Source of the DNA: Gelidibacter algens
GTDB lineage: Bacteria > Bacteroidota > Bacteroidia > Flavobacteriales > Flavobacteriaceae
Direction of reading: 5' to 3'
Assembly (NCBI RefSeq): GCF_001678675.1
Contig: NZ_LZRN01000003.1
Coordinates: 62,001-126,000 of the forward strand
Length of the DNA stretch: 64,000 bases
Shown: one piece after another, positions 26,373 through 59,298 of the stretch
Position numbering within the stretch: the first letter of the stretch is position 1
How the letters are laid out: each line of letters starts with the position of its first letter
Notes under the pieces: generated by a model
Database searches by the model: none
Told to the model about the DNA's origin: nothing
The model's input: only the letters and a program-made list of their open reading frames with translations
Made by a program: the position numbers and the translations under genes

Positions 26373-26449
26373 TAAAACAAAATTATAAGTATCAGTCGTT
26401 TTTGACAATGCCCCTTGAAGAAAGCGAAACACCCAAATCTACCATTATC

Positions 26450-39790: not shown

Positions 39791-39832
39791 TAGAAATTAA
39801 TGAAGATGAGGTTTCAAATTAAAACTATTGAG

Positions 39833-41666: not shown

Positions 41667-43421
41667 TTAAAGCTGTTGGATAAAGTCGTCAAGATAAACG
41701 GCATCTGCCAGTTGCATTTTTTTTCGCATTCTGTAACGGCTCGTATTTAAAGACGCAAGTGTTATATTTTGTAGTGTAGCAATACGGTTGCTGTCCATTT
41801 TTAAGCGGATTAGAGAACACAACCTTACTTCATTTTTACTCAAATTGGGGAACTTACTATTAAGATGGCTGTAAAAGGCATCATTAAGTTTATCTAAGCG
41901 TTCATAAAAAACCTTAGTGTCGCTGTCTAATTGAACCTTATTTTTTATGTCCAATTCCAAGGCCTCTAAAACCGAATGTCTGATTTTTGGATCTCCAGAT
42001 TTTAGAAGCTTAAGCTTAGAAGCAAACAGTTCTGCCCACTGCTGGTTTTGTGTCAAATTCAGTGCAAAATCAGATAGATCGCGCTGTTTTGATTCAATTT
42101 CCAAATGAAGCTGCTCCACTTTTAACGCGGCATTTTCCAAGTGTTGCTCAGCTAACAAGGCTTTGCTATTCGCATTGATAAGATGCTGTCTTCTGCCAAG
42201 AAAGAGGAGCAGCAAAAAAATGATAAAAGCTGAAGATATTAGCGTGGTGAACCTTAACGCGGTTTTTTGGCTTTTAATTTCGCTCTCCTTTTCCATACGG
42301 TCAATCTCAAACTTGAGCGCCACTCTATCAACGGTGATTGTATTAAGTTCATCACGCCATTGACTGTCTTGTTGTGCAGCAACTGCTGCCAAACTATCGG
42401 ACAAAAATGCCTTATATTCTAGAGCAGCATATGCAGTGTACAGTTTATTTTGTGCTTTGTAAAGGTTTGCCTTGGCAGAGAGATACTCGAGTTTAGAATT
42501 TGGCATGAACTCATTTCTTGTTTTAGCATTTGCTACAATAGTGTCAAGTTCTGAAAAAACATCTTGGGCCTGTTCAATATTTTCAATATTCAAATTGGTC
42601 TGGATCAATTGGGCTCCTGCACTGATCAATCGAGAAATGTCTCTGGCATTAGTGGTTTCTTCAATTGCCGTTTTGTAGAATTCAAAATTCATGGCATATA
42701 AATCTCTTGCTTCGGCATCTTTATTTTGGTCAAGATAGATGTCAGCTATATTATCGCGAATACTTGCACTAAGGGTGTTAGAAGGAAAATGTTGCTTGGT
42801 AATGTCATAGGCCAATTTAAAATTGATCAAAGCAGAGTCCTTATCTTTTTTTGTCCAATAAAAAAATAAACCATAATTATTGATTGCAGACGGATGGGAA
42901 ATTGTAGAAAGAGTGTCATTAAACCGGATATTCTTCTTGTGTTCGGCAGCAGCACTGTCTAAATATTTTAATTGCTCATAATTATTTGCCAAATTGCTGT
43001 GGGCAAAACTTATCATACTGTTATACCCTTTAATTTGCTTTGGTGTTAACTCTTTTTGGTGGGCTTTATAAAAGTTAAAAAAATCGTTATAGGATATAAT
43101 GGATTGTGCTACAAAACCAATGGCACGAAACCAATTGCCTGAATGGAGATAGGCATCCATTACAAATGTGGGCCTATCTGTTATAAAAGGTAAAAGATCT
43201 AGACGCTTAAAATGCTGAGAGAGATAGATCTCTAATTGACGCTCTGAAAAAGAAGTACGATAGTAGGTTTTCATGGCATCTTCAGGAAAAGATTTGGCCA
43301 TTGCAGCACTCAATCGTTGATATTCCTTATAGGCATCATCACTTGTAACCTGTTGCTGAGATATCATAACCAAGTGGCAAAAAAGAAAAACAATGCCCAC
43401 CAAATAACGTGTACCCTTCAA
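41667..43421 (-). CDS. TPR-containing membrane-anchored HTH regulator
   Basis: This 584-aa one-protein sensor and regulator has four parts. A signal-anchor start (YLVGIVFLFCHLVMISQQQ) leads into a periplasmic TPR-like helical domain (about 30-385). One membrane span follows (about 392-410, SSAFIIFLLLLFLGRR). A cytoplasmic coiled coil (about 415-470) precedes a C-terminal LuxR-like helix-turn-helix, LSKNEVRLCSLIRLKMDSNRI through LNTSRYRMRKKM. The start is TTG at 43421: the first ATG is 18 codons in and would destroy the signal segment. It diverges from the 940-aa propeller regulator of the PUL, and the two share the same HTH type. Whether it controls the PUL or another target is open. Confidence 0.82.
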   Translation of the reverse strand: MKGTRYLVGIVFLFCHLVMISQQQVTSDDAYKEYQRLSAAMAKSFPEDAMKTYYRTSFSERQLEIYLSQHFKRLDLLPFITDRPTFVMDAYLHSGNWFRAIGFVAQSIISYNDFFNFYKAHQKELTPKQIKGYNSMISFAHSNLANNYEQLKYLDSAAAEHKKNIRFNDTLSTISHPSAINNYGLFFYWTKKDKDSALINFKLAYDITKQHFPSNTLSASIRDNIADIYLDQNKDAEARDLYAMNFEFYKTAIEETTNARDISRLISAGAQLIQTNLNIENIEQAQDVFSELDTIVANAKTRNEFMPNSKLEYLSAKANLYKAQNKLYTAYAALEYKAFLSDSLAAVAAQQDSQWRDELNTITVDRVALKFEIDRMEKESEIKSQKTALRFTTLISSAFIIFLLLLFLGRRQHLINANSKALLAEQHLENAALKVEQLHLEIESKQRDLSDFALNLTQNQQWAELFASKLKLLKSGDPKIRHSVLEALELDIKNKVQLDSDTKVFYERLDKLNDAFYSHLNSKFPNLSKNEVRLCSLIRLKMDSNRIATLQNITLASLNTSRYRMRKKMQLADAVYLDDFIQQL

Positions 43422-43877: not shown

Positions 43878-46700
43878 ATGGCAATGAAATCAAAAATGCC
43901 ATTCCTATTACCGTCCCCTTTTGTGGTGGTTCTTTTTTGCTGCCTGTTTTTTCAAAGCAGGTTAGAGGCTCAATATTCGCCATATTTTCAAAATTATGAT
44001 TTGTCTCAATACAATGCTGGGAATCAGAATTGGGGCATTTCTAAAGCGGAAGATGGTAGGCTCTATGTAGCTAATAATAAAGGGTTGTTAGAGTTTGATG
44101 GTCTTAAATGGACCCTAAATGTACTTCCAAATAAAACAACCATTCGTTCTGTACTGGCAGTAGATAAAAAGATTTATATAGGCTCCTATGAGGAGTTCGG
44201 TTTTTGGGAACGCGACAAATTTGGAACGCTCAATTATACCTCCATTAGTAAAGATTTAGATCCAAGGGAATTTTTGAATCAAGAATTTTGGCAGATTATT
44301 TCAACGGATGATGCGATAATATTTCGCTCGTTTTTGAATATCTATATATTTAGAAATGGCGTGATTAAAAAAATCGAACCCCCTTCTACAGTAATGTCAT
44401 GCAACGTGATAGACGGAACCTTGTATATAGCCACGTTGACTAATGGAATTTTAAGTTTGCAAAATGGCGATTTAAAACCTTTTATAGAACATGGGGCACT
44501 AGTAGATACCAAGATCGTTTCCATCTCAAAAACGGACGGCGCATTTTTTATTACCACCTCCTTGGAAGGCATTTTTACTTACGCTAAGGGTGTTTTAAAA
44601 CCATGGACTACTGAAATTACTGCAATAGTAAAAGAACATCAGCTCAATGTGTTTACTGAAATGGAGAATGGGAATATGGTATTTGGAACCATTCAAAATG
44701 GTGTTTATGTCACTAACCCAGACGGACAAATAAAGTTTCATATTCATAAGGAGAATGGACTTATCAACAATACCGTACTCTCACAATATATAGATGAGAA
44801 TGACCAATTATGGATGGGACTTGACAATGGCTTAGCTTCTGCCGATTTGAAAAGTCCTTATTTATTCTACAATGATGTCTCAGGAAAATTGGGTGCCGTT
44901 TATGACGTGATCAACTATAAAAACACGGTTTACATTGGCAGTAATACAGGTTTGTTTTACTTGGACCAGAAAAATACTTTGCAATTTATTGATGGCTCTC
45001 AAGGTCAGGTTTGGGATTTAACTGAAATTGAAGGCGATCTTTTTTGTGGCCATAACAACGGCACTTATATTGTTGAGGATAAAAAATTAAAACTCATATC
45101 CCAATTCACGGGAGGTTGGGTCATTAGAAAAGTAGTAGATGCTCCAAGAACATATATTCAAGGCACCTATGCTGGACTGGTAAAATTTAAAAAGGAAAGT
45201 ACCGGTTGGACAGTAAAGCAGTTGGGAGGCACGACCATACCCAGTCGCTTCTTGGTCTTTGAAGACGCTTACACCGCTTGGGTGGCACATGCTTACAAGG
45301 GCTTGTACAAAATAAAGTTCAGTAAGTCCTATGACAGTATTTTGGACATAAAAAACTATGAGCATAAGGGACTGTCGTCCACCTATAATGTTCGTGTGTA
45401 TAAACTCAAAAATGACATCTCCATAAAAACGAACAATGGCTGGCAAAAATATGAACCTTTATTGGACACCATTGTACCATATGATCTGTTAAATACAAGT
45501 TTTGGGAAAAATTCATATATCATTTCTGAAAATGACGTCACTACCTTAGCTGTTAAAAATCAGAACAGTATTAATTTCAAGACTTTTCCAGAGGATGGTT
45601 TCAAAGCATCATTGAGTGATAAGTATTTTAAGAAACGTCTGATTGTGGGCTATGAAAATGTATCACAGTTAAAAGATGATACACAAGCTTTGAGTTTGGA
45701 TAATGGTTTTATGCTGTTTGACACCTCCTTAAGTGCGGAATCCAATGTTTTACAAAAGCCCTATTTTGAAGGTATCGAAATAGATCAGCAACGGATCGCT
45801 TTAAATGCTATTGAAAATATTGAGTTGCCAAATAATTTTAAAACATTCACTATTGCCTTGACCGCTCCAAAATCTAAAGACCATTTTTTCGAATATACCG
45901 TGGCTTCTATGGATGCGGTACATTGGTATAAAATTGAAAATGAGACGTTGGATCTTTCAAACATTAGCTACGGTACCTATGAGTTTTTGTTTAGGGCTTC
46001 AAATCATTTGGGAGAAACGTCAGCTAATCAAAAGTTGATGGTCACCGTTTTGCCACCTTGGTATAGAACCGCGCAAGGCTATCTGTTTTTTGCATTTATA
46101 TTAGCGCTAATTTTGATCTTGTTTTATGTACTGCACCGTAGGAAAATTGAAAAAGAGCAAAAATTATTGCAAATCAAATTCGCCGAAAAACAAAATGAAT
46201 TGATCAAGGAGAAGAATGTCGAAAACCAGCGCCACATCGTCGAGCTTAAAAATGAATCATTGAAAAATGAAGTTAAATTAAAGAGTAAGCAGCTAGCCAA
46301 CACCGCTATGGCTTTGGTGAAAAAGAATGAAACACTTTTAGAACTTAAAAAGGAAATCTCAATCCATAAAAACACCTTTGATAATTACATTTCCTATAAA
46401 AATATTATCAAGAAAATTGACACATCCATAGGACATAAAGACGAATGGAAAGTATTTGAGTACAATTTCAATCAGGTGCATGAGGAATTTTTTAAACAAC
46501 TGAAAGGTGAACATCCCAACCTTACGTCTAAGGATTTGAGGGTTTGTGCCTACATCAAAATGAATTTATCTACAAAAGAGATTGCGCCCTTATTGAACAT
46601 CTCTATTAGAGGCGTAGAAACCCAGAGATATCGATTAAAAAACAAATTGAAGTTGAATTCTGATAAATCTTTGACGGATTATTTGCTAAATTTCAAATAA
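43878..46700 (+). CDS. Beta-propeller/Y_Y_Y membrane-spanning HTH regulator of the PUL
   Basis: This 940-aa SusR-like sensor and regulator starts with a signal peptide ending FFQSRLEAQ. A long periplasmic region of two-component-regulator-type propeller blades follows (WGISKAEDGRLYVANNKGLLEFDG, and repeats of VYIGSNTGLFYL form). A triple-tyrosine (Y_Y_Y) domain lies near 650-725. One membrane span (about 735-756, YLFFAFILALILILFYVLH) leads to a cytoplasmic coiled coil and a LuxR-like HTH at about 885-940 (LTSKDLRVCAYIKMNLSTKEI, then RGVETQRYRLKNKL). There is no kinase or receiver domain, so it should bind DNA itself. It directly precedes susC, the classical place for the sensor of the sugar released from the target glycan. 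Confidence 0.87.
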   Translation: MAMKSKMPFLLPSPFVVVLFCCLFFQSRLEAQYSPYFQNYDLSQYNAGNQNWGISKAEDGRLYVANNKGLLEFDGLKWTLNVLPNKTTIRSVLAVDKKIYIGSYEEFGFWERDKFGTLNYTSISKDLDPREFLNQEFWQIISTDDAIIFRSFLNIYIFRNGVIKKIEPPSTVMSCNVIDGTLYIATLTNGILSLQNGDLKPFIEHGALVDTKIVSISKTDGAFFITTSLEGIFTYAKGVLKPWTTEITAIVKEHQLNVFTEMENGNMVFGTIQNGVYVTNPDGQIKFHIHKENGLINNTVLSQYIDENDQLWMGLDNGLASADLKSPYLFYNDVSGKLGAVYDVINYKNTVYIGSNTGLFYLDQKNTLQFIDGSQGQVWDLTEIEGDLFCGHNNGTYIVEDKKLKLISQFTGGWVIRKVVDAPRTYIQGTYAGLVKFKKESTGWTVKQLGGTTIPSRFLVFEDAYTAWVAHAYKGLYKIKFSKSYDSILDIKNYEHKGLSSTYNVRVYKLKNDISIKTNNGWQKYEPLLDTIVPYDLLNTSFGKNSYIISENDVTTLAVKNQNSINFKTFPEDGFKASLSDKYFKKRLIVGYENVSQLKDDTQALSLDNGFMLFDTSLSAESNVLQKPYFEGIEIDQQRIALNAIENIELPNNFKTFTIALTAPKSKDHFFEYTVASMDAVHWYKIENETLDLSNISYGTYEFLFRASNHLGETSANQKLMVTVLPPWYRTAQGYLFFAFILALILILFYVLHRRKIEKEQKLLQIKFAEKQNELIKEKNVENQRHIVELKNESLKNEVKLKSKQLANTAMALVKKNETLLELKKEISIHKNTFDNYISYKNIIKKIDTSIGHKDEWKVFEYNFNQVHEEFFKQLKGEHPNLTSKDLRVCAYIKMNLSTKEIAPLLNISIRGVETQRYRLKNKLKLNSDKSLTDYLLNFK

Positions 46701-46735
46701 AAGTACTTCACAATTCCGAATTTCGAATTTTATTA

Positions 46736-46843
46736 TACGTCAATACTACGTCAAGTGTCCCTTACTCCATCGTTTGCGGACTTTTTTTAGTATCTTCAAG
46801 CTACGTCATTATTGAAATTTAAGATTTTTTTAACTCTGACGTA
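46736..46843. promoter_or_regulatory. Cluster of four TACGTCA sites upstream of susC
   Basis: TACGTCA occurs at 46736-46742, 46747-46753 and 46802-46808, and inverted (TGACGTA) at 46837-46843. The first two are 11 bp apart and the second and third 55 bp apart, so these three lie on one DNA face. A weak -7 element, TACCTTTC, lies at 46887-46894, which puts the last site around 50-60 bp before transcription start. The cluster lies between the HTH regulator and susC and is a candidate operator for that regulator. Confidence 0.45.
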
Positions 46844-46923
46844 ATCAAAATGTAATTCAAATTTACTTCAGCTTTTAAAATCATTATACCTTTCGATTAG
46901 CTAACGCAATAAATTCAATAGAT

Positions 46924-49900
46924 ATGAAAGCAAAACTAGTTTTATTCTTATTTTTTCTTTTCAGTTACACGGTGTCCCAGGCCCAGGAATCTACTGTCAC
47001 AGGAACGGTAACGAGCGCAGAAGACAACTTACCAATACCAGGCGTAAATGTTTTAGTCAAGGGGACAAATAGAGGAACAAGCACTGATTTTGATGGAAAT
47101 TATTCATTACAAGTAGCTAAAGGTGAAGTTTTAGAATTTTCATCCATTGGTTTTAAAAGCGTTGACATCACAATTGATAGTCAAACAACGCTTAATGTAG
47201 GTTTAGTATCTGATGTAGAAGCATTGGGTGAGATTGTTGTGATTGGTTATGGAACCCAAAGGAAAGTGGATTTGACAGGAGCCATAACTACTGTTAAAGC
47301 AGAAGATATTGAAAAAACACCCAATAGCAACGTCATGCAATCTTTGCAAGGTAAAGTTGCTGGGGTACAAATTGTAAGTAGTGGCGCTCCGGGTGCTTCT
47401 CCAACAGTAAGGATACGTGGTGTCAATTCCTTCTCTGCTGGTGGTGGTCCATTATATGTAGTAGATGGCATGTGGTACGAGAATATAGATTTTTTAGATA
47501 ATAGCCAAATAGAAACCGTCTCTGTTTTAAAGGATGTTTCTTCTATTGCCATCTTTGGCCAACGGGGTGTTAATGGCGTCATCATTATTGAAACAAAAAG
47601 TGGAAAGTTTGAAATGAAACCCGTCATTACCTACAACGGATATACAGGCGTTCAATATGCTCGAAATGTAGTGAAGATGGCAAATGCCGAACAGTTTACA
47701 ACTATGGCTTATGAATCAGGATCTGCTCCTGATATTCAATTTGTTGAAAATGCGATTGCCAGATTTGGTAGAAGTAGAGTAAATCCGAATTTGCCAGATG
47801 TCAACACTGATTGGTATAAGGAAGTTTTGAGACCTGCCACAATTTCAAGCCATAGTATTGGAGTGACAGGTGGGGGCGAATCTGCAAGCTATGGTGTGAG
47901 TACCAATTACTTTTCTCAGGATGGTATTCTGGATATGAAAAATGAATATGAACGTTTTAACATACAATCTAATGTTGATGTGAAAGTAACAGACCGATTG
48001 AGGATTGGCACCAATTCAATTTTCAGCAATGCTTTGCGCTACAATCCCGAAAATAGTGCATGGTTCCAAGCTTATTTTGCAGTGCCTATTTTACCGGTAT
48101 TTGATTATGTTAATCCAGATGCAGTTACAACACCATATTCTGATGCTACTGTTTTAGGATATCGCGGGTCACAAAACCCTTTCCCAGTTATGCGGTATAA
48201 CGAGAACCAATTGAAAATCAGAAAAGTATTGACCAGTATTTATGGTGAATTTGACATTGTTCCTGAAAAATTAACCTTCAAAACCTCATACTATCACGAT
48301 TATTCAACAATTTCTGAACGTAATGTCAGATCGCTTTATTATATCTCACCAAATTCAAATAGACAACAACCTGATACTTCCATAAGACGTGCAGAACAGG
48401 ATTATTCGACTCAAATATGGGATAATACGCTAACCTATAAAGACCAATTTGGCAATCATAATCTAACGCTATTGGCGGGGTCCTCTTACAGGGATGAGCA
48501 GGTAAATTCATTTAGCGCAACTGGAAATGACATACAGGGTATTGCATTTGAAAGCTCTTGGTATTTAAATTTTGCCGATCCTACCAAATTCAATGATAAT
48601 GTAAGTGAGATTGGCGACCGTTTTTATGCATTGGCGTATTTTGGAAGATTGGAGTATGGCTTTGACGACAGATATTTAGTGAACGCTACCGTTAGAACTG
48701 AGGGAGATGCTAAATTTCCTAGAGAAATTTGGAAGACAACGCCGCAGATTGGTGTAGGATGGGTTATTTCTCAAGAGAGTTTTATGCAGGAAAACGGTGT
48801 ATTCGATTTCTTAAAGTTGCGCGGTAGTTGGGGGCAATTGCCTAATGCGGCTTTAGGGGGAAGCGCAGGCACAAGAACCGTAAGTCAAGTAACACTTGCC
48901 ATTCAAGATTTATTGACCAATGGTATTATTAGTACCAATGACTTTACCGATTTAAAAAGAGAGATTCTTGAAGAAACCAACGTGGGTCTCAGTGCCCGAA
49001 TGTTTCAGAATAAATTGACATTGGAAGCCGATTATTATATACGGGATACAAAAGATTTAGTGGTACCTGTTATCCAAAGAATTACAAATCAGTCATTAAT
49101 CAAAAATGCAGGTGAAATGAGAAACGAAGGTTTGGAACTAAGTGCTGACTGGAGCCAAAGGGTTTCTGATAACTGGAGTTTTAGCATCGGTGCTAATATT
49201 GGCACCAATAAAAACACGATCACAAAAATAGAGAGTGATCAAGGGTATTTTGATACGGGTGAGGCAGAATTCCGTCAACGGCTTATTGTTGGCGAACCTA
49301 TCAATTCCTTCTTCGGCGTTGAAGTAGCTGGGGTTTATCAAAATGCAGCAGAAGTGGCGGCAGATCCTGTTGCTGTAGCTAATAATTTGGTTCCTGGAGA
49401 CCTAAAATATGTTGATCAAAATGGTGATGATGTTATTGATGATGCCGACAGAGTTGTACTTGGATCATATTTGCCTACACTTACTTATGGTGGTAACATG
49501 CAGGTATCTTACAAAAACTTTGATTTATCGGTAGCCGTATCCGGACAATCAGGAAACAGCATTTTAAATAGAAAAAGGGGAGAGGTGATTTTTACAAATG
49601 ACACCAATATTGATGCTGACTTTGCAATCAACAGATGGCATGGTGAAGGAACCACCAATTCATATCCATCGTCTGCAGCGAGAAGAAAAGGTTGGAATCA
49701 AAAAATGAGCTCATTCTTTGTTGAAGACGGAATGTATTTCAGAATTCAGAACATCCAATTGGCTTACACGATTCCTTCTGGCTCATTATTGGGACAGAGA
49801 TCTCCAGAAACTAAAATTACGTTTACGGCCGATCGTCCTTTTACCTTCTTTAAATACAACGGATTCAACCCTGAAGTATCTGATGGAATTGATCGTCAAA

Positions 49901-49950
49901 CCTATCCAATACCTGCTGTTTACACAGTTGGGATAAATATAAAAATCTAA
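46924..49950 (+). CDS. susC: SusC-type TonB-dependent glycan transporter
   Basis: This 1008-aa outer-membrane protein imports oligosaccharides with its SusD partner, powered by TonB. The signal peptide ends TVSQAQ. A carboxypeptidase-regulatory-like domain at about 25-105 contains GTVTSAEDNLPIPGVNVLVK and GTNRGTSTDFDGNYSL. The TonB/plug region starts with EIVVIGYGTQRKVDLTGAI and includes LQGKVAGVQIVSSGAPG and VRIRGVNSFSAGGGPLYVVDG. The rest is the 22-strand barrel, ending in an aromatic-rich strand (IPAVYTVGINIKI). It heads the PUL operon, 12 bp before susD. The symbol denotes the family role only; the substrate differs from the starch of the type SusC. Confidence 0.93.
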   Translation: MKAKLVLFLFFLFSYTVSQAQESTVTGTVTSAEDNLPIPGVNVLVKGTNRGTSTDFDGNYSLQVAKGEVLEFSSIGFKSVDITIDSQTTLNVGLVSDVEALGEIVVIGYGTQRKVDLTGAITTVKAEDIEKTPNSNVMQSLQGKVAGVQIVSSGAPGASPTVRIRGVNSFSAGGGPLYVVDGMWYENIDFLDNSQIETVSVLKDVSSIAIFGQRGVNGVIIIETKSGKFEMKPVITYNGYTGVQYARNVVKMANAEQFTTMAYESGSAPDIQFVENAIARFGRSRVNPNLPDVNTDWYKEVLRPATISSHSIGVTGGGESASYGVSTNYFSQDGILDMKNEYERFNIQSNVDVKVTDRLRIGTNSIFSNALRYNPENSAWFQAYFAVPILPVFDYVNPDAVTTPYSDATVLGYRGSQNPFPVMRYNENQLKIRKVLTSIYGEFDIVPEKLTFKTSYYHDYSTISERNVRSLYYISPNSNRQQPDTSIRRAEQDYSTQIWDNTLTYKDQFGNHNLTLLAGSSYRDEQVNSFSATGNDIQGIAFESSWYLNFADPTKFNDNVSEIGDRFYALAYFGRLEYGFDDRYLVNATVRTEGDAKFPREIWKTTPQIGVGWVISQESFMQENGVFDFLKLRGSWGQLPNAALGGSAGTRTVSQVTLAIQDLLTNGIISTNDFTDLKREILEETNVGLSARMFQNKLTLEADYYIRDTKDLVVPVIQRITNQSLIKNAGEMRNEGLELSADWSQRVSDNWSFSIGANIGTNKNTITKIESDQGYFDTGEAEFRQRLIVGEPINSFFGVEVAGVYQNAAEVAADPVAVANNLVPGDLKYVDQNGDDVIDDADRVVLGSYLPTLTYGGNMQVSYKNFDLSVAVSGQSGNSILNRKRGEVIFTNDTNIDADFAINRWHGEGTTNSYPSSAARRKGWNQKMSSFFVEDGMYFRIQNIQLAYTIPSGSLLGQRSPETKITFTADRPFTFFKYNGFNPEVSDGIDRQTYPIPAVYTVGINIKI

Positions 49951-49962
49951 AAAATTTGCCTT

Positions 49963-51498
49963 ATGAAAAATTTGAAATTAGTTCTCAAACCAATGGCGCT
50001 TCTAACCGTGTTGGGCATGCTCTTTACGGCATGTAGTGAGAAATTAGAAGAAAACGATGGCCAATTGGCTACAGATGATTTGGATTTTACCAATATGTCT
50101 GATATGATACTGCCTGTATATGGCGCCTACTCGGTAACCTATTCTCGAGGCTGGGAAGATCCTTTGTTGCTTGGGGTTAGAGGAGATGATGTCAATGCAG
50201 GCGGATTAGGAGATCAGCCGTTATTTGCTCAAACGGACCTTTATAACTACGACAATGGTTTTTGGATGTTTAACCAAGTATGGATCAATTTTTATAAAGA
50301 TCTTGCTGATATTATCAACTCTATGGAGCTCCTAGAGAGGTACAAGGTGTTTGCCACAGGCCAGGATATCACAAGAGCTGATCAGTATATTGCAGAAACG
50401 AAGGTTTTAAGTGCGTATCAGCATTTAAACATGGCTAAATTATGGGGAAATATTTTCATCATAAAAACTACTGATTTTGATGCCGAAACCAATAATGGGG
50501 TGGATACTAAAATGGAAGTTTTGCAATATGTGTCTGATTTGATGGATGAAGCGATTCCTTTTTTACCAGATGTTAGACCTAATGAACGCGTTGATATCCC
50601 TGGTGGCGTTACAAAATATACAGCTTTGGCCATAAAAGCCATGGCTAATTTAGAGATGGAAAATTACCAAGGTGTTGCTGATGCAACAGGTCAAATCATT
50701 AGCTCCAGTAAATTCAGTTTATTTCCAGATTTTTATGAATTGTTCAAAAAACCAGGAGAATTGAGCAACGAAAATTTATTCGAATTGCAGTTTTCTGATT
50801 ATAACCAATCGTCTGGAGCAGCCAACAATCACGAATATGGTCCTTTCGGACCTGCAAATTGGACGCCCGTTGTTAAAACAGCTGATCCAGGTTGGGGCTT
50901 TTATGAGCCAAGTGTCAAGTTTATCAAATTCATGTTGGACAGAGGAGAAACAAAACGATTGTTAACCAGTGTCTTATTTACTCCAGATGGTATTAGCCAA
51001 ATAAAGTCAGATCCTAGTTACGCCACCTTGCCTAACTTTATCTCAAATGTAACACCAGATGGTGACCAAATTAATAATTATGCAAGAGCAAAATTTGCTA
51101 GTGGAAAACACTATTTGCCTTCCAACCAATTAACAGAAGGACGAAACAATTATGGGTCCAGTAAAAACTTTATTGTTATCCGTTATTCTGAAATATTGTT
51201 GATGTATGCAGAAGCCCTTACAAGAGGCGCCTCAGGAACTACAATGACAGCAGATCAAGCTGTAAACACTGTTAGAGTTAGAGCAGATATGGCGCCGCTT
51301 TCTGGGGTTACAAGTGATCAAGTTATGGAAGAGAAATTTGCTGAACTCGCAATGGAATGGGGCGTTCGTTATTTTGATATGATTCGCCTAAACAAATATG
51401 ACGAATTGAGTTATGACGGCAGAACTTTCAGTGCAGATAAAGAATTACTGCCATACCCTCAAGCCCAATTGGATTTATTGCCTTTGGAAAACAATTAG
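49963..51498 (+). CDS. susD: SusD/RagB-type surface glycan-binding lipoprotein
   Basis: This 511-aa lipoprotein acts as the lid of the SusC transporter on the cell surface. The signal peptide ends in a lipobox (LGMLFTAC, Cys 24) followed by acidic residues (SEKLEEND), in keeping with surface export. The fold is mainly helical with TPR-like pairs (YIAETKVLSAYQHLNMAKLWG; YTALAIKAMANLEMENYQG). The late SusD signature is clear: IRYSEILLMYAEALTRG, then VNTVRVRADM and FAELAMEWGVRYFDMIRLNK. It immediately follows susC, the standard pair. The ligand is inferred to be a beta-glucan from the enzymes downstream. Confidence 0.93.
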   Translation: MKNLKLVLKPMALLTVLGMLFTACSEKLEENDGQLATDDLDFTNMSDMILPVYGAYSVTYSRGWEDPLLLGVRGDDVNAGGLGDQPLFAQTDLYNYDNGFWMFNQVWINFYKDLADIINSMELLERYKVFATGQDITRADQYIAETKVLSAYQHLNMAKLWGNIFIIKTTDFDAETNNGVDTKMEVLQYVSDLMDEAIPFLPDVRPNERVDIPGGVTKYTALAIKAMANLEMENYQGVADATGQIISSSKFSLFPDFYELFKKPGELSNENLFELQFSDYNQSSGAANNHEYGPFGPANWTPVVKTADPGWGFYEPSVKFIKFMLDRGETKRLLTSVLFTPDGISQIKSDPSYATLPNFISNVTPDGDQINNYARAKFASGKHYLPSNQLTEGRNNYGSSKNFIVIRYSEILLMYAEALTRGASGTTMTADQAVNTVRVRADMAPLSGVTSDQVMEEKFAELAMEWGVRYFDMIRLNKYDELSYDGRTFSADKELLPYPQAQLDLLPLENN

Positions 51499-51528
51499 AA
51501 GGAAGAAATAATCTTTAAAATAAACAAA

Positions 51529-53253
51529 ATGAAAAAAATCAATAAAATTTTTATTGGGTTATTTGCCTTAGTCCTAATGACGTCATGTTATGAAGGTATT
51601 GACTCAATTTCAGAAGTGGATCCGGGTCCTGACGCAGGAGCGCCATTAATCTCTATTATGAGACCCGCCAATGGACTGGAGATTCAAGTGCCAGAGCCAG
51701 TAACTTCAACAACTATTGAATTCAAAGTTGAAGATGATATTGAATTGGGAACTATTTCAGTCATGCTTGATGGTGTGGAAATAGCTTCCTATAATCAATT
51801 TGTAGATTATAGAATTGCAAAAGAGCAGTTTGTTTATGACAATATCACCACTGGTGATCATATACTAAGTATCACTGCTACTGACTTGGTTGGAAATGTC
51901 AGCACATCCACTGTCAATTTCACAAAATCACCTCCTTACACCCCTATATTTGCTGGCGAGCAGTTTTACATGCCATTTGATGGCGATTTTACAGAACTTG
52001 TAAGCGTTATGCCAGCAGGGGAAGTTGGCAATCCGGATTTTGGAGGCAGTGCTTACGCGGGATCAAATTCATACAAAGCAGGTACTGATAATTATTTAAC
52101 CTTTCCTGTAAGCGAATTGACATTGGGCAATAACTTTAGTGGAGCATTTTGGTATAAGGTGAATGCTACCCCTGATCGGTCTGGTATATTGACCATTGGT
52201 GCCTCCGCAGAAAACCGTAATCAAGGTTTGAGATTGTTCAGAGAAGGTAACGGGACAGCACAACGCATTAAATTAAATGTTGGTACTGGTGCCAGTGATA
52301 GCTGGAATGATGGTGGTGAAATTAATGTGGCTGCAGGAGAATGGGTGCATGTGGTCTTTACCATTTCAGAAACGCAGACTAAAATTTACCTTAACGGAAT
52401 GGAAGTAAACACCGGAACTTTAGGCGCACCAATAGATTGGACAGGAACGTCGCAATTGGTCATCGGGGCTGGTGGCCCTACCTTTAGTTATTGGGATCAT
52501 AAATCAGATTCAAGTTTAATGGATGAGCTCCGATTGTTTGATAAAACATTATCACAAAGTGAGATCACTAGCATGATTGCCCAAGGCAGTCAAAAATTAC
52601 ATGTTAATTTCAACGGTAGTTATACAGATAATGTCAGAGATATAGAAGCCACCGTTGTTGGCAATCCAGGTTTTTCTGGAGATGCCTATGCGGGATCAAA
52701 TGCTTACAAAGGCGCTGAAAATTCGTACCTCACATTCCCTACTACAGGGCTATTGGAAAATCAGTTTAGTGCTGCATTTTGGTACAAGATGAATGCTACA
52801 CCTGATCGTGCCGGAATTTTAGTTGTAGGTCCTCCTGATTCAGGAAATGCAAATTTCCCTGGGGTACAGAACAACCGCACCAGCGGTTTCCGTTTCTTCC
52901 GAGAAGGAGGTGCCACCAATCAGACTTTTAAACTCAATGTGGGCAATGGAACTGCCGATAATTGGTTTGACGGTGGAGCAGCAGCGACTATAGATCCGAC
53001 TGCAAATAATGGATGGGTTCATTTGGCCTTCACGATTTCTTCTACAGAATGTGTGGTTTACATTAATGGAGAAGTTGTCAAACAAGGTGAATTTACAGGC
53101 GTAGATTGGACCGGCTGTGATCTTCTTTCAGTGATGTCTGGGGCTCCTCGATTTACAGAATGGGGTCACAAATCTGACTTGAGCGTTATGGACGAGTTGA
53201 GAATTTTTGATAAAGCCCTGTCACAAACAGAAATTCAGGCACTTATGTTCTAA
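51529..53253 (+). CDS. Surface glycan-binding lipoprotein with tandem LamG domains
   Basis: This 574-aa lipoprotein (MTSC lipobox, Cys 20) sits where SusE/SusF-type binding proteins sit. An Ig-like domain at about 40-130 (MRPANGLEIQVPEP to VGNVSTSTVNF) is followed by two LamG/concanavalin-like jellyrolls, about 145-355 and 360-574. The two halves are clear duplicates, sharing GSNxYK, FWYKxNATPDRxGIL, LRLFREG/FRFFREG, IKLNVGTGASD/FKLNVGNGTAD and MDELRxFDKxLSQxEI. No catalytic residues of a glycoside hydrolase are apparent, so binding of the glycan at the surface is the likely job. It is 30 bp after susD and followed by a strong stem-loop. Confidence 0.85.
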   Translation: MKKINKIFIGLFALVLMTSCYEGIDSISEVDPGPDAGAPLISIMRPANGLEIQVPEPVTSTTIEFKVEDDIELGTISVMLDGVEIASYNQFVDYRIAKEQFVYDNITTGDHILSITATDLVGNVSTSTVNFTKSPPYTPIFAGEQFYMPFDGDFTELVSVMPAGEVGNPDFGGSAYAGSNSYKAGTDNYLTFPVSELTLGNNFSGAFWYKVNATPDRSGILTIGASAENRNQGLRLFREGNGTAQRIKLNVGTGASDSWNDGGEINVAAGEWVHVVFTISETQTKIYLNGMEVNTGTLGAPIDWTGTSQLVIGAGGPTFSYWDHKSDSSLMDELRLFDKTLSQSEITSMIAQGSQKLHVNFNGSYTDNVRDIEATVVGNPGFSGDAYAGSNAYKGAENSYLTFPTTGLLENQFSAAFWYKMNATPDRAGILVVGPPDSGNANFPGVQNNRTSGFRFFREGGATNQTFKLNVGNGTADNWFDGGAAATIDPTANNGWVHLAFTISSTECVVYINGEVVKQGEFTGVDWTGCDLLSVMSGAPRFTEWGHKSDLSVMDELRIFDKALSQTEIQALMF

Positions 53254-53310
53254 TTACAAACGCCTATCACAAGGATGGCTGTATAAATCTTATTGAATTA
53301 TTCTAATTCT

Positions 53311-53348
53311 ATTTTGGCTGCATTCTGGTAACGGAATGCAGCTAAAAT
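53311..53348 (+). terminator. Strong stem-loop after the susCD/LamG genes
   Basis: A 15-bp stem (ATTTTGGCTGCATTC, 53311-53325, with GAATGCAGCTAAAAT, 53334-53348), with one G-T wobble and an 8-nt loop, lies in the 111-bp gap before the first GH144 gene. There is no clean T-run afterwards, so it may be a partial terminator or an RNA-stabilising hairpin that gives susCD higher expression than the enzymes. Confidence 0.55.
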
Positions 53349-53364
53349 TTATTTAACACTCTTT

Positions 53365-54732
53365 ATGAACAACCTTTTGACCAAAATAGTAATGCTTTGG
53401 ATGCCATTGTTTTTGCTTTTTTCGAGCTGTAATTCAACTGAAAAAAGGCAGAACATGGGATCTTTTGATGCCAAGTCAGAGCCAATAAATGCTGATGATG
53501 CTTTATTGGACACCCTTCAAAAACAAACCTTCAACTACTTTTGGGAAGGTTCGGAACCAAATTCAGGTTTGGCAAGAGAGCGCCTTCATATGGATGGTGT
53601 TTATCCCACAAGCCCAAAAAACACAGTAACAACAGGCGGCTCCGGTTTTGGGTTTATGGCACTTTTAGTAGGCATTAAAAGAGGCTACATTTCAAGAGAA
53701 GAGGCCGTAGAACGCTTTACAAAAATGGTCAACTTTCTTGAAAAAGCCGATCGTTTTCACGGCGCTTGGCCTCATTGGATGAATGGTGAAACTGGGAAAA
53801 TAGTGCCTTTCAGCAAAAAGGATACAGGTGGCGACTTAGTGGAAACTGCTTTTTTGGTGCAGGGGATGTTGACCGTTAAGGAATATTTCAAAAATGGGAA
53901 TACTAAAGAAAAACAGCTCGCCAGTAAAATAGATCAACTGTGGAGAGAAGTAGAATGGGATTGGTATACCAAAGGTGAAAATGTGCTGTATTGGCATTGG
54001 TCTCCAACTGATCATTGGGATATGAATTTTCCCGTGGGTGGCTATAATGAGGCGCTTGTGATGTATATACTTGCTGCAGCATCGCCTACACACGGTATTT
54101 CCAAAGAAGTTTATGATGAAGGTTGGGCGTTGATCGGCAATATCGTTTCTAAAGATTCTTTATATGGGATTCCTCTAGTGCTAAATTACTATGAAAATGA
54201 TGATGCCGACATTGGTCCCTTATTTTGGAGTCATTATTCCTATTTGGGATTGAATCCAAAAGGCTTGAAAGATAGGTACGCCGATTATTGGCAATTGGTC
54301 CAAAATCAAGCGAAAATTCATCACGCATACGCAGTTGATAATCCTAAAAATTTTAAAGGCTACGGTGATAGTTTATGGGGCATGACCTCAAGTTACTCCA
54401 TGAAAGGGTATGATAGTCATAGACCAGGGAATGATTTGGGAGTTATCTCGCCTACAGCGGCCTTAGCGTCCTTTCCTTATACACCTGAAGAAAGCATGAA
54501 GATGCTTCATTATTTATATACAAAACAGGACACCTTGATTGGTAAATACGGCCCTTATGATGCGTTCAGTTTGGATAAAAATTGGTCAGTACCACGGTAT
54601 TTGGCCATTGATCAAGGACCAATTCCGGTAATGATCGAGAATTATAGATCAGGAATGCTTTGGGATTTGTTTATGAACAATGACGATGTCCAACACGGAT
54701 TGGACAAACTCGGATTTACGTATCCAAAATAA
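53365..54732 (+). CDS. GH144-type (glycoamylase-domain) lipoprotein, probable endo-beta-1,2-glucanase
   Basis: This 455-aa lipoprotein (LLFSSC, Cys 22) carries the PF10091-type (alpha/alpha)6 domain, the family of GH144 endo-beta-1,2-glucanases such as Chitinophaga pinensis SGL and Bacteroides BT_3566. Family blocks seen are TFNYFWEGSEPNSGLARER, TTGGSGFGFMALLVG, ADRFHGAWPHWMNG, GGDLVETAFLVQGML (155-169, with Glu 160) and the late LAIDQGPIPVMIENYRSG. The enzyme should cut the polysaccharide at the surface or in the periplasm into sophoro-oligosaccharides. The next gene is a full-length paralog in the same direction, 46 bp away. Substrate is inferred from the family and the GH3 partner. Confidence 0.87.
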   Translation: MNNLLTKIVMLWMPLFLLFSSCNSTEKRQNMGSFDAKSEPINADDALLDTLQKQTFNYFWEGSEPNSGLARERLHMDGVYPTSPKNTVTTGGSGFGFMALLVGIKRGYISREEAVERFTKMVNFLEKADRFHGAWPHWMNGETGKIVPFSKKDTGGDLVETAFLVQGMLTVKEYFKNGNTKEKQLASKIDQLWREVEWDWYTKGENVLYWHWSPTDHWDMNFPVGGYNEALVMYILAAASPTHGISKEVYDEGWALIGNIVSKDSLYGIPLVLNYYENDDADIGPLFWSHYSYLGLNPKGLKDRYADYWQLVQNQAKIHHAYAVDNPKNFKGYGDSLWGMTSSYSMKGYDSHRPGNDLGVISPTAALASFPYTPEESMKMLHYLYTKQDTLIGKYGPYDAFSLDKNWSVPRYLAIDQGPIPVMIENYRSGMLWDLFMNNDDVQHGLDKLGFTYPK

Positions 54733-54778
54733 AATAATAGGTTGAACATGGTAGGACCTAAACTTTATAAAAGAAAAC

Positions 54779-56146
54779 ATGAAAAAAACAATTAGTCTCT
54801 TATTTATTGCAATCCTTATATATACCTGTTCTGGAAACTCGTCATCTGAATCATTTGACCCAGATCCTGTTGATGATGGCCCCGTAGTTATTGATCCGTT
54901 ATCTGATGAAGACATGTTGGATTTGGTGCAGCGCGAAACCTTCAAATATTTTTGGGACTTTGCAGAGGCTAATTCCGGAGCTGCAAGAGAGCGTTATATT
55001 CCGAGCAATCCTGCCCAAGATAAAAATATAGTGACCACAGGCGGTACAGGGTTTGGGTTGATGGCAATTTTAGTGGGGATTGAAAGAGGTTATGTTACAA
55101 GAGCGGAAGCAGTATCAAGATTACAAACCTTACTGACTTTTTTTGAGAACGCCGATCGCTTTCACGGCGCATGGCCACATTGGCTCAACGGGACAAATGG
55201 AAGCGTTATTCCATTTAGTGAACAGGACAACGGTGGCGATTTGGTAGAGACTGCTTTTTTGGTTCAAGGCTTGATATGTATCAAGGAGTATTTTAAAAAC
55301 GGCTCACCAGCTGAAGTGGCATTGGCAAACAAAGCCGATGTCCTCTGGAAGGGTGTGGAATGGGAGTGGTACACCCAAGGTGAAAATGTATTGTATTGGC
55401 ACTGGAGCCCAACTAATGAATTTGCCATCAATTTAAAATTACAAGGCTATAATGAAACCTTAGTGGCGTACATTTTAGGAGCAGCATCACCAGAACATGC
55501 CATCGCACAGGAAGTTTATACCCATGGTTGGGCGGGCAATGGAAGTATTAAATCTTCCAATGTGCAATATGGCTTACCACTCGTTTTAAACCATCCAGGT
55601 TCGGCTCAATTTGGTGGCCCATTATTTTTTAGCCATTATTCATTTTTGGGTTTGAACCCAACTAATTTGGTAGATCAATATGCCAATTACAAAGATGTGG
55701 CTACCAACCACGCTAAAATCAATTATCAATATTGTGTTCAAAATCCGCGAAATTTTGAAGGTTACGGTATGGATTGCTGGGGATTATCGGCAAGCTACTC
55801 CAGAAATGCTGATGGTTCCCTCGGGTATTCTGCACACAGTCCTGCAAATGATAAAGGGATTATTTCACCCACAGCCGCCATTAGCTCTATGCCTTATACT
55901 TCAGCAGAATCTTTGCGCGCCATGCATTATTTTTATCAGGAAAAAGATAAATTATTGGGTGTTGCGGGGTTTTATGATGCCTTTAGCCCGGAATATGATT
56001 TTTGGGTTGCAGAAGCTTATTTAGCAATTGACCAAGGCCCTCAAATTATTATGATTGAAAATCACAGAACAGGGTTACTTTGGAATTTGTTCATGCAGAA
56101 CCAAGAGGTCCGTAATGGACTTGACGCTTTAGGATTTACGTATTAG
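54779..56146 (+). CDS. GH144-type lipoprotein, second paralog
   Basis: This 455-aa lipoprotein (lipobox IYTC, Cys 17; acidic linker SFDPDPVDDGP after it) is the paralog of the gene just upstream. It has the same blocks: TFKYFWDFAEANSGAARER, TTGGTGFGLMAILVG, ADRFHGAWPHWLNG, GGDLVETAFLVQGL (from residue 152, Glu 157) and LAIDQGPQIIMIENHRTG. The two differ near the active-site rim and at the tail, so one may be endo-acting and the other prefer different chain lengths, or one may sit on the surface and one inside. Start ATG 54779 is the only one giving a lipoprotein signal. Function as a beta-1,2-glucanase is inferred from the family. Confidence 0.87.
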   Translation: MKKTISLLFIAILIYTCSGNSSSESFDPDPVDDGPVVIDPLSDEDMLDLVQRETFKYFWDFAEANSGAARERYIPSNPAQDKNIVTTGGTGFGLMAILVGIERGYVTRAEAVSRLQTLLTFFENADRFHGAWPHWLNGTNGSVIPFSEQDNGGDLVETAFLVQGLICIKEYFKNGSPAEVALANKADVLWKGVEWEWYTQGENVLYWHWSPTNEFAINLKLQGYNETLVAYILGAASPEHAIAQEVYTHGWAGNGSIKSSNVQYGLPLVLNHPGSAQFGGPLFFSHYSFLGLNPTNLVDQYANYKDVATNHAKINYQYCVQNPRNFEGYGMDCWGLSASYSRNADGSLGYSAHSPANDKGIISPTAAISSMPYTSAESLRAMHYFYQEKDKLLGVAGFYDAFSPEYDFWVAEAYLAIDQGPQIIMIENHRTGLLWNLFMQNQEVRNGLDALGFTY

Positions 56147-56191
56147 TGAATAGGATTTATAGCTTTTAAGTAGAATTTAAAATTACAAAAA

Positions 56192-56989
56192 ATGAAACTA
56201 CATGTTAAACAGATTGACTTAGTGTTTTTGTTGTGTTTTCTTTTAGGTGTCCAAAATGCGATGGCGCAATATCAAGAGCACTATTTGGAAGAAGATTTTA
56301 TTTCAGGAGAAGACACCTTAAACTATCGATTATTGTTGCCAAAAAATTTCGACGAATCCAAACAATACCCAGTGGTGTTGTTTCTTCATGGTGCTGGCGA
56401 AAGAGGCAGTGATAATGCCAAACAACTGGTGCATGGTAGTGAATTATTCTATAAAACGAGCGACACTTTTCCCGCCATTGTCATTTTTCCGCAATGTCCA
56501 CAAAATGATTATTGGGTAAATGCCACAGTTGATAGAAGCACAACACCTCTTTCTTTAAATTTTCCATTGGACGTCGCACCAACTAAATCCATGACCTTGG
56601 TAATGGCCTTGCTGGACGAGATGTTAGCGAAACCTTATACCAACACCAATGAGATGTATGTTGGCGGACTCTCCATGGGAGGGATGGGTACTTTTGAAAT
56701 CCTTTATAGAAAGCCGGAAGTTTTCGCTGCAGCTTTTGCTATTTGTGGGGCGGGAAATGCCGAGGCTACAAAAGCGTATGCTACAACTGTTCCGATGTGG
56801 ATTTTTCATGGCGCTAAAGATAATGTGGTTGCTCCGCAGGAATCGGTAGACATGGTTTCCGGTATTTTAAAATACGGAGGAACTCCTAATTTTTCGCTTT
56901 ACGCCAAAGACAATCATAACAGTTGGGATTCGGCATTTGCTGAACCTGAACTTATTCCCTGGTTATTTTCTAATTCTAAATCAAAATAA
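56192..56989 (+). CDS. Secreted alpha/beta-hydrolase (carboxylesterase/prolyl-oligopeptidase-like)
   Basis: This 265-aa secreted serine hydrolase has a signal peptide ending QNAMAQ. The oxyanion segment VVLFLHGAGERGSDN lies at 61-76, the nucleophile motif GLSMGG with Ser 161, an acid in WIFHGAKDNVVAP and a His in KDNHNSWDSAF, so the catalytic triad is complete. Family members in PULs remove acyl or feruloyl groups from glycans, but the substrate cannot be read here. Its stop overlaps the start of the GH3 gene by one base (TAATG), implying translational coupling and a shared job with the beta-glucosidase. It suggests that the target glucan carries ester groups. Confidence 0.82.
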   Translation: MKLHVKQIDLVFLLCFLLGVQNAMAQYQEHYLEEDFISGEDTLNYRLLLPKNFDESKQYPVVLFLHGAGERGSDNAKQLVHGSELFYKTSDTFPAIVIFPQCPQNDYWVNATVDRSTTPLSLNFPLDVAPTKSMTLVMALLDEMLAKPYTNTNEMYVGGLSMGGMGTFEILYRKPEVFAAAFAICGAGNAEATKAYATTVPMWIFHGAKDNVVAPQESVDMVSGILKYGGTPNFSLYAKDNHNSWDSAFAEPELIPWLFSNSKSK

Positions 56990-59298
56990 TGAAATCACAA
57001 TCCATCAACTCCGTTCTTTTTAGTGCACTTACTTTTTGTTTGCTATCCTGCAATTCCTATCAGGCACAAACTCAAGTTAAATCTGAAAAATCCACTGCAC
57101 AAAAAGTAGATTCCATTCTCAAATTAATGACTTTGGATGAAAAATTGGGACAGCTCAATTTACCATCTGCGGGTGACATTACTACGGGTCAAGCTACAAG
57201 TTCCGACATTGCCAAAAAAATTGAAGAAGGTAAGGTAGGCGGTCTTTTTAATATCAAAACGGTTGCAAAAATTAGGGATGTCCAAAAGGTAGCCATGGAA
57301 AAAAGCCGATTGAAGATTCCGTTATTATTTGGGATGGATGTCATTCACGGCTATGAGACCACATTCCCAATTCCGCTAGGATTATCCAGCTCTTGGAATA
57401 TGCCAATGATTGAGAAAACCGCGCGTATTGCGGCCATTGAGGCTAGCGCTGATGGAATTAACTGGACGTTTTCGCCCATGGTAGATATCTCAAGGGATGC
57501 CCGTTGGGGCCGTGTTTCTGAAGGTTCTGGTGAAGATGCTTATTTGGGAAGCCAGATTGCAAAAGCAATGGTCAATGGGTATCAAGGTAAAGATTTGACC
57601 CAAAATACAACCATAATGGCCTGTGTAAAGCATTTCGCTTTATATGGTGCATCAGAAGCAGGACGCGATTATAATACGGTAGATATGAGCCGTATTAAAA
57701 TGTACAATGATTACTTACCGCCTTATAAAGCGGCAATTGATGCTGGCGTGGGTTCAGTAATGGCAGCATTTAATGAAATTGATGGCGTACCTGCTACTGG
57801 GAATAAGTGGTTGTTGACCGACTTGTTGCGTACCGATTGGGGTTTTGACGGGTTTGTGGTGTCAGATTACACCGGTATTAATGAAATGGTCGATCATGGT
57901 ATGGGAGACCTGCAAGCCGTTTCAGCCTTGGCATTGAATGCTGGTGTGGATATGGATATGGTTGGCGAAGGGTTGTTGACTACTTTAAAGAAATCTTATG
58001 AGGAAGGTAAAGTCACCATGGCAACCATTGATACAGCTGTTAAACGCATGCTGACTGCAAAATATCAATTGGGCTTGTTTGAAGATCCTTATAAATACTG
58101 CGATATTGATAGAGCTAAAACAGATATTTTTACGGATGACCATCGTGCATTTGCAAGAAAAGTGTCAGCAGAATCGATGGTATTGTTGAAAAACGACAAC
58201 CAGACCTTACCACTAAAAAAATCAGGAACGATTGCGCTAATCGGACCGTTAGCCAATAATGCGGTGAATATGGCAGGGACTTGGAGTGTGGCCACCAAGC
58301 AAGAAAAATCCAGTCCGCTTTTAGAAGGTTTAAAAACTGTTGTCGGTAATAAAGCTAAAATACTATACGCCAAAGGCAGTAATCTGGCTAAAGATTTAGA
58401 ATACGAGAAACGGGCGACCATGTTTGGGAAAGATATTCCGCGTGATGGAAGAACGGATCAACAAATGTTGGATGAAGCTTTGGAGATCGCTTCAAAATCT
58501 GATGTTATAATTGCGGCTTTGGGAGAATCGGCTGAGATGAGCGGCGAAAGCAGCAGCAGAACCAATCTTGATATTCCTCAAATTCAAAAAGAGTTATTAA
58601 AAGCGCTTTTAAAAACAGGAAAGCCTGTAATTTTGGTCATGTTTACCGGGCGGCCATTAACTATTCAGGAAGAAGTGGAAACCGTTCCCGCTATTTTGAA
58701 CGTTTGGTTTCCTGGCAGTGAAGCGGGCTTAGCAATTTCAGATGTGCTGTTTGGCGATGTCAATCCTTCAGGGAAACTGACAGCAACCTTTCCTCGCAAT
58801 GTGGGACAGATTCCAATTTATTACAATCATAAAAATACGGGTCGACCATTGAACAATGATGAAGGGAATTTTGAAAAATTCCGCAGCAATTATTTAGATG
58901 TGCGCAACGAGCCTTTATTTCCTTTCGGATATGGGTTAAGCTATACCCAATTTGAGTATTCCAACTTAAAGTTAAGCGCAAATCAAATGGCCATGACTGG
59001 TGATATTGAGGTTACTGTTAACGTGAAGAACTCAGGAAATTACGACGGAAAAGAAGTCGTCCAATTGTACATCAGAGATTTGGTAGGCTCGGTAACGAGA
59101 CCCGTTAAAGAACTGAAAGGCTTTCAAAAAATAGAAATGAAAAAAGGGGAAACTAAAACGGTGACTTTCAAAGTGACTGTTGACAATTTAAAATTCTACA
59201 ATTACAATTTAGATTTTGTTGCTGAACCAGGACAGTTTGAAGTATTTGTGGGCACTAATTCTGACACCACCATGAAAGCAGGATTTGAATTGAGATAA
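56989..59298 (+). CDS. bglX: GH3 beta-glucosidase (BglX-like) lipoprotein
   Basis: This 769-aa glycoside hydrolase family 3 enzyme has a lipoprotein signal (CLLSC, Cys 21), so it acts in the periplasm or on the outer membrane. Domain 1 carries LFGMDVIHGYETTFPIPLG, the active-site GRVSEGSGEDAYL and KHFALYGASEAGRDYN. The nucleophile is Asp 293 in GFVVSDYTGI. The second, sandwich domain has the acid/base region (ALGESAEMSGESSSRT). A fibronectin-III-like domain ends the protein (RPVKELKGFQKIEMKKGETK). It releases glucose from the ends of beta-linked oligosaccharides. With GH144 neighbours the expected substrate is sophorose-type beta-1,2 oligomers, as for Bacteroides BT_3567. It is coupled to the upstream esterase. 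Confidence 0.92.
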   Translation: MKSQSINSVLFSALTFCLLSCNSYQAQTQVKSEKSTAQKVDSILKLMTLDEKLGQLNLPSAGDITTGQATSSDIAKKIEEGKVGGLFNIKTVAKIRDVQKVAMEKSRLKIPLLFGMDVIHGYETTFPIPLGLSSSWNMPMIEKTARIAAIEASADGINWTFSPMVDISRDARWGRVSEGSGEDAYLGSQIAKAMVNGYQGKDLTQNTTIMACVKHFALYGASEAGRDYNTVDMSRIKMYNDYLPPYKAAIDAGVGSVMAAFNEIDGVPATGNKWLLTDLLRTDWGFDGFVVSDYTGINEMVDHGMGDLQAVSALALNAGVDMDMVGEGLLTTLKKSYEEGKVTMATIDTAVKRMLTAKYQLGLFEDPYKYCDIDRAKTDIFTDDHRAFARKVSAESMVLLKNDNQTLPLKKSGTIALIGPLANNAVNMAGTWSVATKQEKSSPLLEGLKTVVGNKAKILYAKGSNLAKDLEYEKRATMFGKDIPRDGRTDQQMLDEALEIASKSDVIIAALGESAEMSGESSSRTNLDIPQIQKELLKALLKTGKPVILVMFTGRPLTIQEEVETVPAILNVWFPGSEAGLAISDVLFGDVNPSGKLTATFPRNVGQIPIYYNHKNTGRPLNNDEGNFEKFRSNYLDVRNEPLFPFGYGLSYTQFEYSNLKLSANQMAMTGDIEVTVNVKNSGNYDGKEVVQLYIRDLVGSVTRPVKELKGFQKIEMKKGETKTVTFKVTVDNLKFYNYNLDFVAEPGQFEVFVGTNSDTTMKAGFELR

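Follow-up and report, generated by a model that had tools for sequence, protein, structure and literature searches.

Arrays of direct and inverted sites are bound by the LuxR-type HTH of MalT-type activators, and helical phasing between distant sites is a feature of lac-type phased loops. For Bacteroides, the predicted operators of the SusR-like motifs are direct repeats 67 or 77 bp apart, the DNA-binding domain of SusR is described as not significantly resembling that of any other known regulator, and HTCS operators are tandem sites that average 21 bp apart (Ravcheev et al. 2013, PMC3878776, in the portions of that source available to us). In the accessible portions of two further papers (PMC12125979 and PMC5061871) the subject is other regulators, and a search of the open-licence literature, whose terms were possibly too narrow, returned no description of operators for the regulator class considered here. 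The locus analyzed lies in a 64,000-nucleotide stretch of Gelidibacter algens DNA (hereafter the window), in which a gap of 223 bp between a regulator stop codon (46700) and a susC ATG (46924) contains an array of short repeated sites (Table 1).

The motif TACGTCA occurs in this gap at 46736, 46747, and 46802 on the forward strand and at 46837 on the reverse strand, with start-to-start spacings of 11, 55, and 35 bp, just as a sequence-only reading of this DNA had noted (three direct copies spaced 11 and 55 bp apart, and one inverted copy). The background density assumed in that reading (about one per 8 kb) was too high, as shuffles yield 3.58 copies per 64 kb, or about one per 18 kb. Four of the seven copies in the whole window fall in the gap; a total of seven is reached by 6 of 100 window shuffles, and 20,000 dinucleotide shuffles of the gap gave a mean of 0.037 copies and a maximum of two, so that the four observed there are beyond chance. 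A fifth half-site, missed in the sequence-only reading, has the same orientation as the inverted copy and lies 11 bp farther along, and the complete array consists of two tandem half-sites spaced by 11 bp, a middle site at +55 bp, and an inverted tandem pair. In the genome of the strain itself, TACGTCA-N4-TACGTCA has a single exact match, and a search allowing two mismatches gave 11 matches versus 21 for a control with the pattern reversed, so there is no conspicuous second target. The string TGACGTCA, reported earlier at 27723, 45533, and 51578, was found at all three positions, which are inside ORFs by their coordinates; the shuffle mean for this string is 0.40, and none of 100 shuffles reaches three copies. 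Downstream of the array, a -7 promoter box was predicted at 46887-46894 from its likeness to the TAnnTTTG consensus; a sigma-70 promoter scan (3 sites versus 1.7 expected) was not used.

Table 1. Features of the array and its neighboring genes (window positions)
Feature	Position	Strand	Evidence
Probable cognate regulator: periplasmic propeller-type sensor, TM, coiled coil, C-terminal GerE/LuxR-type HTH	43878..46700	+	Pfam GerE, model, sensor fold
Possible additional half-site TACTTCA (weak), 32 bp before half-site 1	46704..46710	+	4/5 Gelidibacter loci; weak in 41-locus column profile
Half-site 1 (TATACGTCA), distal tandem pair	46734..46742	+	Core ACGTCA: A, C, C, A in 41/41 loci, G in 39/41
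Half-site 2 (ACTACGTCA), 11 bp from half-site 1	46745..46753	+	A, C, C, A in 41/41, G in 37/41
Half-site 3 (GCTACGTCA), 55 bp from half-site 2	46800..46808	+	Exactly +55 in 37/41
Half-site 4 (ATTACGTCA on -), proximal inverted tandem pair	46837..46845	-	TGACGTA-N7-TGTAA, <=1 mismatch, 35/41
Half-site 5 (ATTACATTT on -), 11 bp from half-site 4	46848..46856	-	inv+15 G 41/41, +16 T 40/41, +17 A 40/41
Predicted -7 promoter box TACCTTTC (TAnnTTTG-like)	46887..46894	+	inv+50: T 36/39, A 36/39, T 36/39, T 39/39
susC, first gene after array	46924..49950	+	TIGR04056, E 3.3e-227
Rest of PUL: susD, LamG protein, two PF10091 (GH144-type) enzymes, esterase, GH3	49963..59298	+	Pfam

The genes flanking the array suggest both a substrate and a sensor. 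The first PF10091 enzyme matches a solved endo-beta-1,2-glucanase (5gzh, E 3.8e-177), and the predicted PUL substrate is therefore beta-1,2-glucan; the gene set of a beta-1,2-glucan PUL (susC/susD, two PF10091 genes, and GH3) is present. Elsewhere in the window (26402-40813), a 4462-aa ORF precedes the gene for a PorP/SprF-type protein (PF11751), an arrangement known from adhesin modules linked to type IX secretion. In the regulator, Pfam at E<=0.001 reported only GerE and no kinase, receiver, or AraC domain. The GerE match (PF00196, residues 881-935) scores 28 bits against a cut-off of 23.5 and places the HTH in the GerE/LuxR (NarL-FixJ) type; the HTH profile also matches the EsrB (E 9.7e-06) and FixJ (E 0.0043) chains, and the recognition helix comprises residues 909-924. 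A hydrophobic stretch at ~733-751 is read as a putative membrane helix. An alignment-based structural model was used (mean pLDDT 83, compared with only 36 for a single-sequence model), and its residues 34-728 align with the sensor of the HTCS BT4663 (4a2l) over 662 residues at a VIA-align Z of 28.1, an rmsd of 4.9, and 15% identity. The protein looks like an HTCS-like sensor joined directly to a LuxR-type HTH.

Orthologs were sought in 299 genomes of the family by scoring the two best candidates per genome. Regulator matches of at least 48% identity were found in 24 genomes (own included), the next best match being 38%. Together with 17 further named, non-duplicate loci, whose stretches end after susD and among which those from Gelidibacter have the closest regulators (72-74% identity), these form a set of 41 non-redundant loci, clade A; duplicates (L173, L175, L178, and L182), loci with no usable gap (L193, L196, and L199), and a locus with broken regulator and susC frames (L197) were dropped. 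The regulator lies directly upstream of susC and co-directional with it in 24/24 ortholog genomes, the 17 added loci are all co-directional as well, and GH144-type genes follow downstream in all 24 except L081, where the contig ends. Conservation in orthologous PULs, the check proposed in the sequence-only reading, holds for the tandem pair, which is present in all 41 loci, and single boxes are degraded or missing in some. Tandem ACGTCA-N5-ACGTCA is exact in 31 loci, has one mismatch in nine, and has two in one, compared with a shuffle mean of 0.04 of 41 loci at <=1 mismatch. The middle site is absent from two loci and is displaced to 54 and 57 bp in one each, and the boxes are the most conserved columns of the upstream block in the 41-locus profile. 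The distance from box 2 to the inverted pair is 89-93 bp in 35 loci and 101-103 bp in six, with none at 94-100 bp. In both clade A and clade C, the start of the inverted pair is followed 50 bp later by a TAnnTT box. A search with all four boxes at fixed gaps found only the strain's own genome (1/299) since the spacing from box 3 to the inverted pair is not constant. Across the clade A loci, SusC is 32-85% identical to that of the window although the regulators are orthologous, suggesting that the transporter may have been exchanged within the PUL.

The distribution of the array across genomes follows that of the regulator. A three-box pattern with <=1 mismatch was found in 21 of the 24 genomes with the ortholog (the exceptions being G142, G047, and G154) and in none of the 275 without it (Fisher p = 2e-29, a value that ignores relatedness). 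When up to two mismatches are allowed, 23 of the 299 genomes match: the 21 with <=1 mismatch adjoin the regulator ortholog, and the other two (G190 and G297, two mismatches and no ortholog) are near chance level, with one match in the reversed control. In a comparison of 24 of the 63 susC matches, drawn from 11 ortholog genomes, the tandem pair is present with <=1 mismatch in 10/10 cognate susC promoters, and the 14 others all have at least three mismatches. Twelve of the 40 other clade A loci keep the ACGTCA array before a susC that shares just 32-44% identity with the window's gene, whereas 26 loci with a closer susC (49-61%) and a clade B or related regulator carry ACATCA-type sites (L090 and L154 being mixed with ACGTCA, and a few having only one good copy). 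Since the array is kept with divergent susC genes and changes its letters with clade B regulators, it goes with the regulator, and the co-occurrence supports the propeller-HTH protein as the probable partner of the sites, as had been proposed from the window itself.

The geometry, conservation, and regulator co-occurrence computed here make it very likely that the sites serve as operator for the adjacent regulator, a membrane-spanning one-component protein that would sense an oligosaccharide of the PUL and, through phased pairs, recruit polymerase at susC. In the periplasm, the propeller sensor probably recognizes an oligosaccharide of the PUL substrate, beta-1,2-gluco-oligosaccharides being the inducer guessed from the GH144-type genes, and its binding would change the regulator dimer. 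The cytoplasmic LuxR-type HTHs would then bind 9-bp half-sites (ACTACGTCA) arranged in tandem at a spacing of one helical turn (11 bp), with the distal pair ~90 bp upstream of an oppositely oriented proximal pair and a single site between them. The two pairs would lie on one helix face and probably cooperate, plausibly by looping, a step suggested by the phasing, and the in-phase HTHs would recruit RNA polymerase to the susC promoter. We infer binding and the inducer from these arrangements, and activation from the position of the array. Repression by the same regulator through the same sites is improbable: activation is not provable from position alone, but the inverted pair ends ~31 bp before the -7 box and just upstream of the expected -33 region, which is a usual position for an activator.

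There is very little to favor binding by the neighboring TPR-TM-HTH regulator (41667-43421, - strand), which the sequence-only reading had offered as an alternative binder. Its gene adjoins that of the propeller regulator, and over the C-terminal 150-180 residues it shares 24-29% identity with the propeller regulators, but an ortholog is found near the array in only 2/40 other clade A loci (Gelidibacter L169 and L170; L198 is without upstream sequence), and the array tracks the propeller regulator instead. Equally hard to credit is the idea that the repeats have nothing to do with the regulator and are a general susC promoter element or an RNA/attenuator signal, since the constant location of the array upstream of susC in the counted loci follows from how the loci were selected, the pair is present in 0/14 other susC promoters of ortholog genomes, the half-site letters differ by regulator clade, the array uses both orientations, and neither an Rfam match nor a terminator-like site was found.

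The propeller-HTH regulator, favored here as the binder, has relatives that also precede susC genes and whose own arrays are similar but use different letters. Clade B regulators (34-38% identity) are followed by susC/susD and then by LamG or GH144-type genes, with GH144 seen in 4 of 17 fetched stretches (L087, L093, L099, and L101); most of the other stretches stop inside the LamG gene. The clade B sites read ACTACATCA-N2-ACTACATCA plus an inverted TGATGTA-N6-ATGTAG. Amongst the 37 loci that fit the clade B model best, the inverted pair is present with <=2 mismatches in 25, and the tandem-to-inverted distance is 90-94 bp in 27, counted from the start of the 9-bp half-site, a scale on which clade A distances are 3 bp longer. 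Several ACATCA-type loci have no clear inverted pair (L103, L147, L149, L150, L153, L192, L212, and L225), possibly reflecting another operator layout. Clade C regulators (~30-37% identity) precede other susC genes; the one locus read further (L258) encodes, after susC, susD, PKD, an unassigned protein, GH16, GH3, and GH16, a laminarin-like set. The clade C half-sites are ACCTATACA and ACCACAACA, with TGTATNTTTTTTGTNNNGG inverted. Within clade C (L127-L257), a half-site-like ACA was also observed upstream of the tandem pair, at a distance of ~21 bp from the pair and 32 bp from box 2.

Distances between the two pairs vary far more widely in clade C, and they do so in steps. A regulator-susC gap was obtained from 30/40 loci in one set and from 51/69 in another (11 of them retried), and the clade C filter retained 59 of 80 loci; four of the 21 failures pass when the reading is extended by 200 nt, and more than half of the remaining failures are of the ACATCA type. 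Box 2 lies 81-82, 102-103, 111-117, 123-129, 134-138, 150-151, or 163 bp from the inverted pair. As computed here, 59 of 63 distances fall within 3 bp of an 11.3-bp grid, versus 33.5 expected if uniform (34/37 outside the main class); the grid was fitted to the same data, and 0/5000 jittered sets reach the observed periodicity under a null that rescans the period. The best period is 11.3-11.5 bp, above 10.5 bp. Parsimony on a FastTree tree of 52 clade C regulators requires at least 18 changes of distance class, an approximate count because many forks of the tree are open (23 of 49 inner branches are starred, and the starred branches alone force seven changes for the main class). The helical phase is therefore not one inherited distance, and the 11-bp stepping points to a requirement that the two sites share a helical face.

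Variation in the half-site letters was compared with the recognition helix in 150 regulators with an assigned half-site pair. The scorer used three consensus patterns and so favors these over other letters, G and A at the key place being equal. Regulators with T915 and a residue other than K at 916 have a G-core in both copies in 35/41 cases and in one copy in 6/41. With I, L, or V at 915 and no K at 916, CATCA is present in both copies in 36/45, in one copy in seven, and in neither in two, one of which (L213) has a misaligned C-terminus; in the seven loci with one CATCA copy, the other copy has G in two, C[AT]ACA in three, and other letters in two. Where I, L, V, or M at 915 is combined with K916, both copies are of the C[AT]ACA type in 63/64. 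Residues R917, Y918, and R919 hardly vary, and neither do the C and CA of the half-site. Trees were built from regulator ORFs longer than 700 aa (141/150 and 52/59 rows). On the sensor-domain tree (141 rows), where three ties with one CATCA and one C[AT]ACA copy were assigned to the CATCA type, operator type changes twice and the residue pattern three times, so about two switches underlie the match between residues and letters. Many further residue changes between clades fall on the same branches, and each independent-pair test on the tree could draw on a single pair and lacked power. The correlation between letters and helix, calculated here, leads to the hypothesis that residues 915/916 may set the half-site letters. 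Residue 915 presumably matches a base-contacting residue of NarL, although a literature search on that equivalence found nothing.

The chances are marginally better than even that the propeller-LuxR-type class, in the GH144-type PULs of the Flavobacteriaceae and in another PUL group (laminarin-like in the one locus read), shares one phased grammar, with an 11-bp tandem pair and an opposed tandem pair beside the promoter kept in phase over 81-163 bp, and with letters that would be set by residues 915/916. If true, a shared grammar would mean that a membrane-tethered regulator holds a phased DNA loop, and the 11-bp stepping would be a handle on how a membrane-bound activator acts at a distance. 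The operator definition would make PUL induction testable with short DNA probes and, together with the two-residue specificity hypothesis, could allow regulons to be predicted from sequence for flavobacterial glucan PULs.

Compared with the SusR-like systems, as far as the available text of PMC3878776 describes them, the present locus is alike in that both concern Bacteroidota PUL regulators with a periplasmic sensor and a C-terminal DNA-binding domain, and perhaps in a long, helix-compatible distance between direct repeats (box 1 to box 3 here is 66 bp, and box 2 to box 3 is 55 bp). The layout here also includes an 11-bp tandem pair, a middle site, and an inverted tandem pair; neither pair is described for the SusR-like operators in that text. 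The HTH, in contrast to that of SusR as characterized there, is a recognizable GerE domain. With the HTCS regulators (BT4663, PDB 4a2l) it shares the fold of the periplasmic propeller sensor, whereas Pfam at E<=0.001 reported none of the histidine kinase, receiver, and AraC-type HTH that they combine in one chain. Relative to MalT-type activators and lac-type loops, the regulator at this locus has a membrane-anchored sensor, and its sites differ in both letters and spacing.
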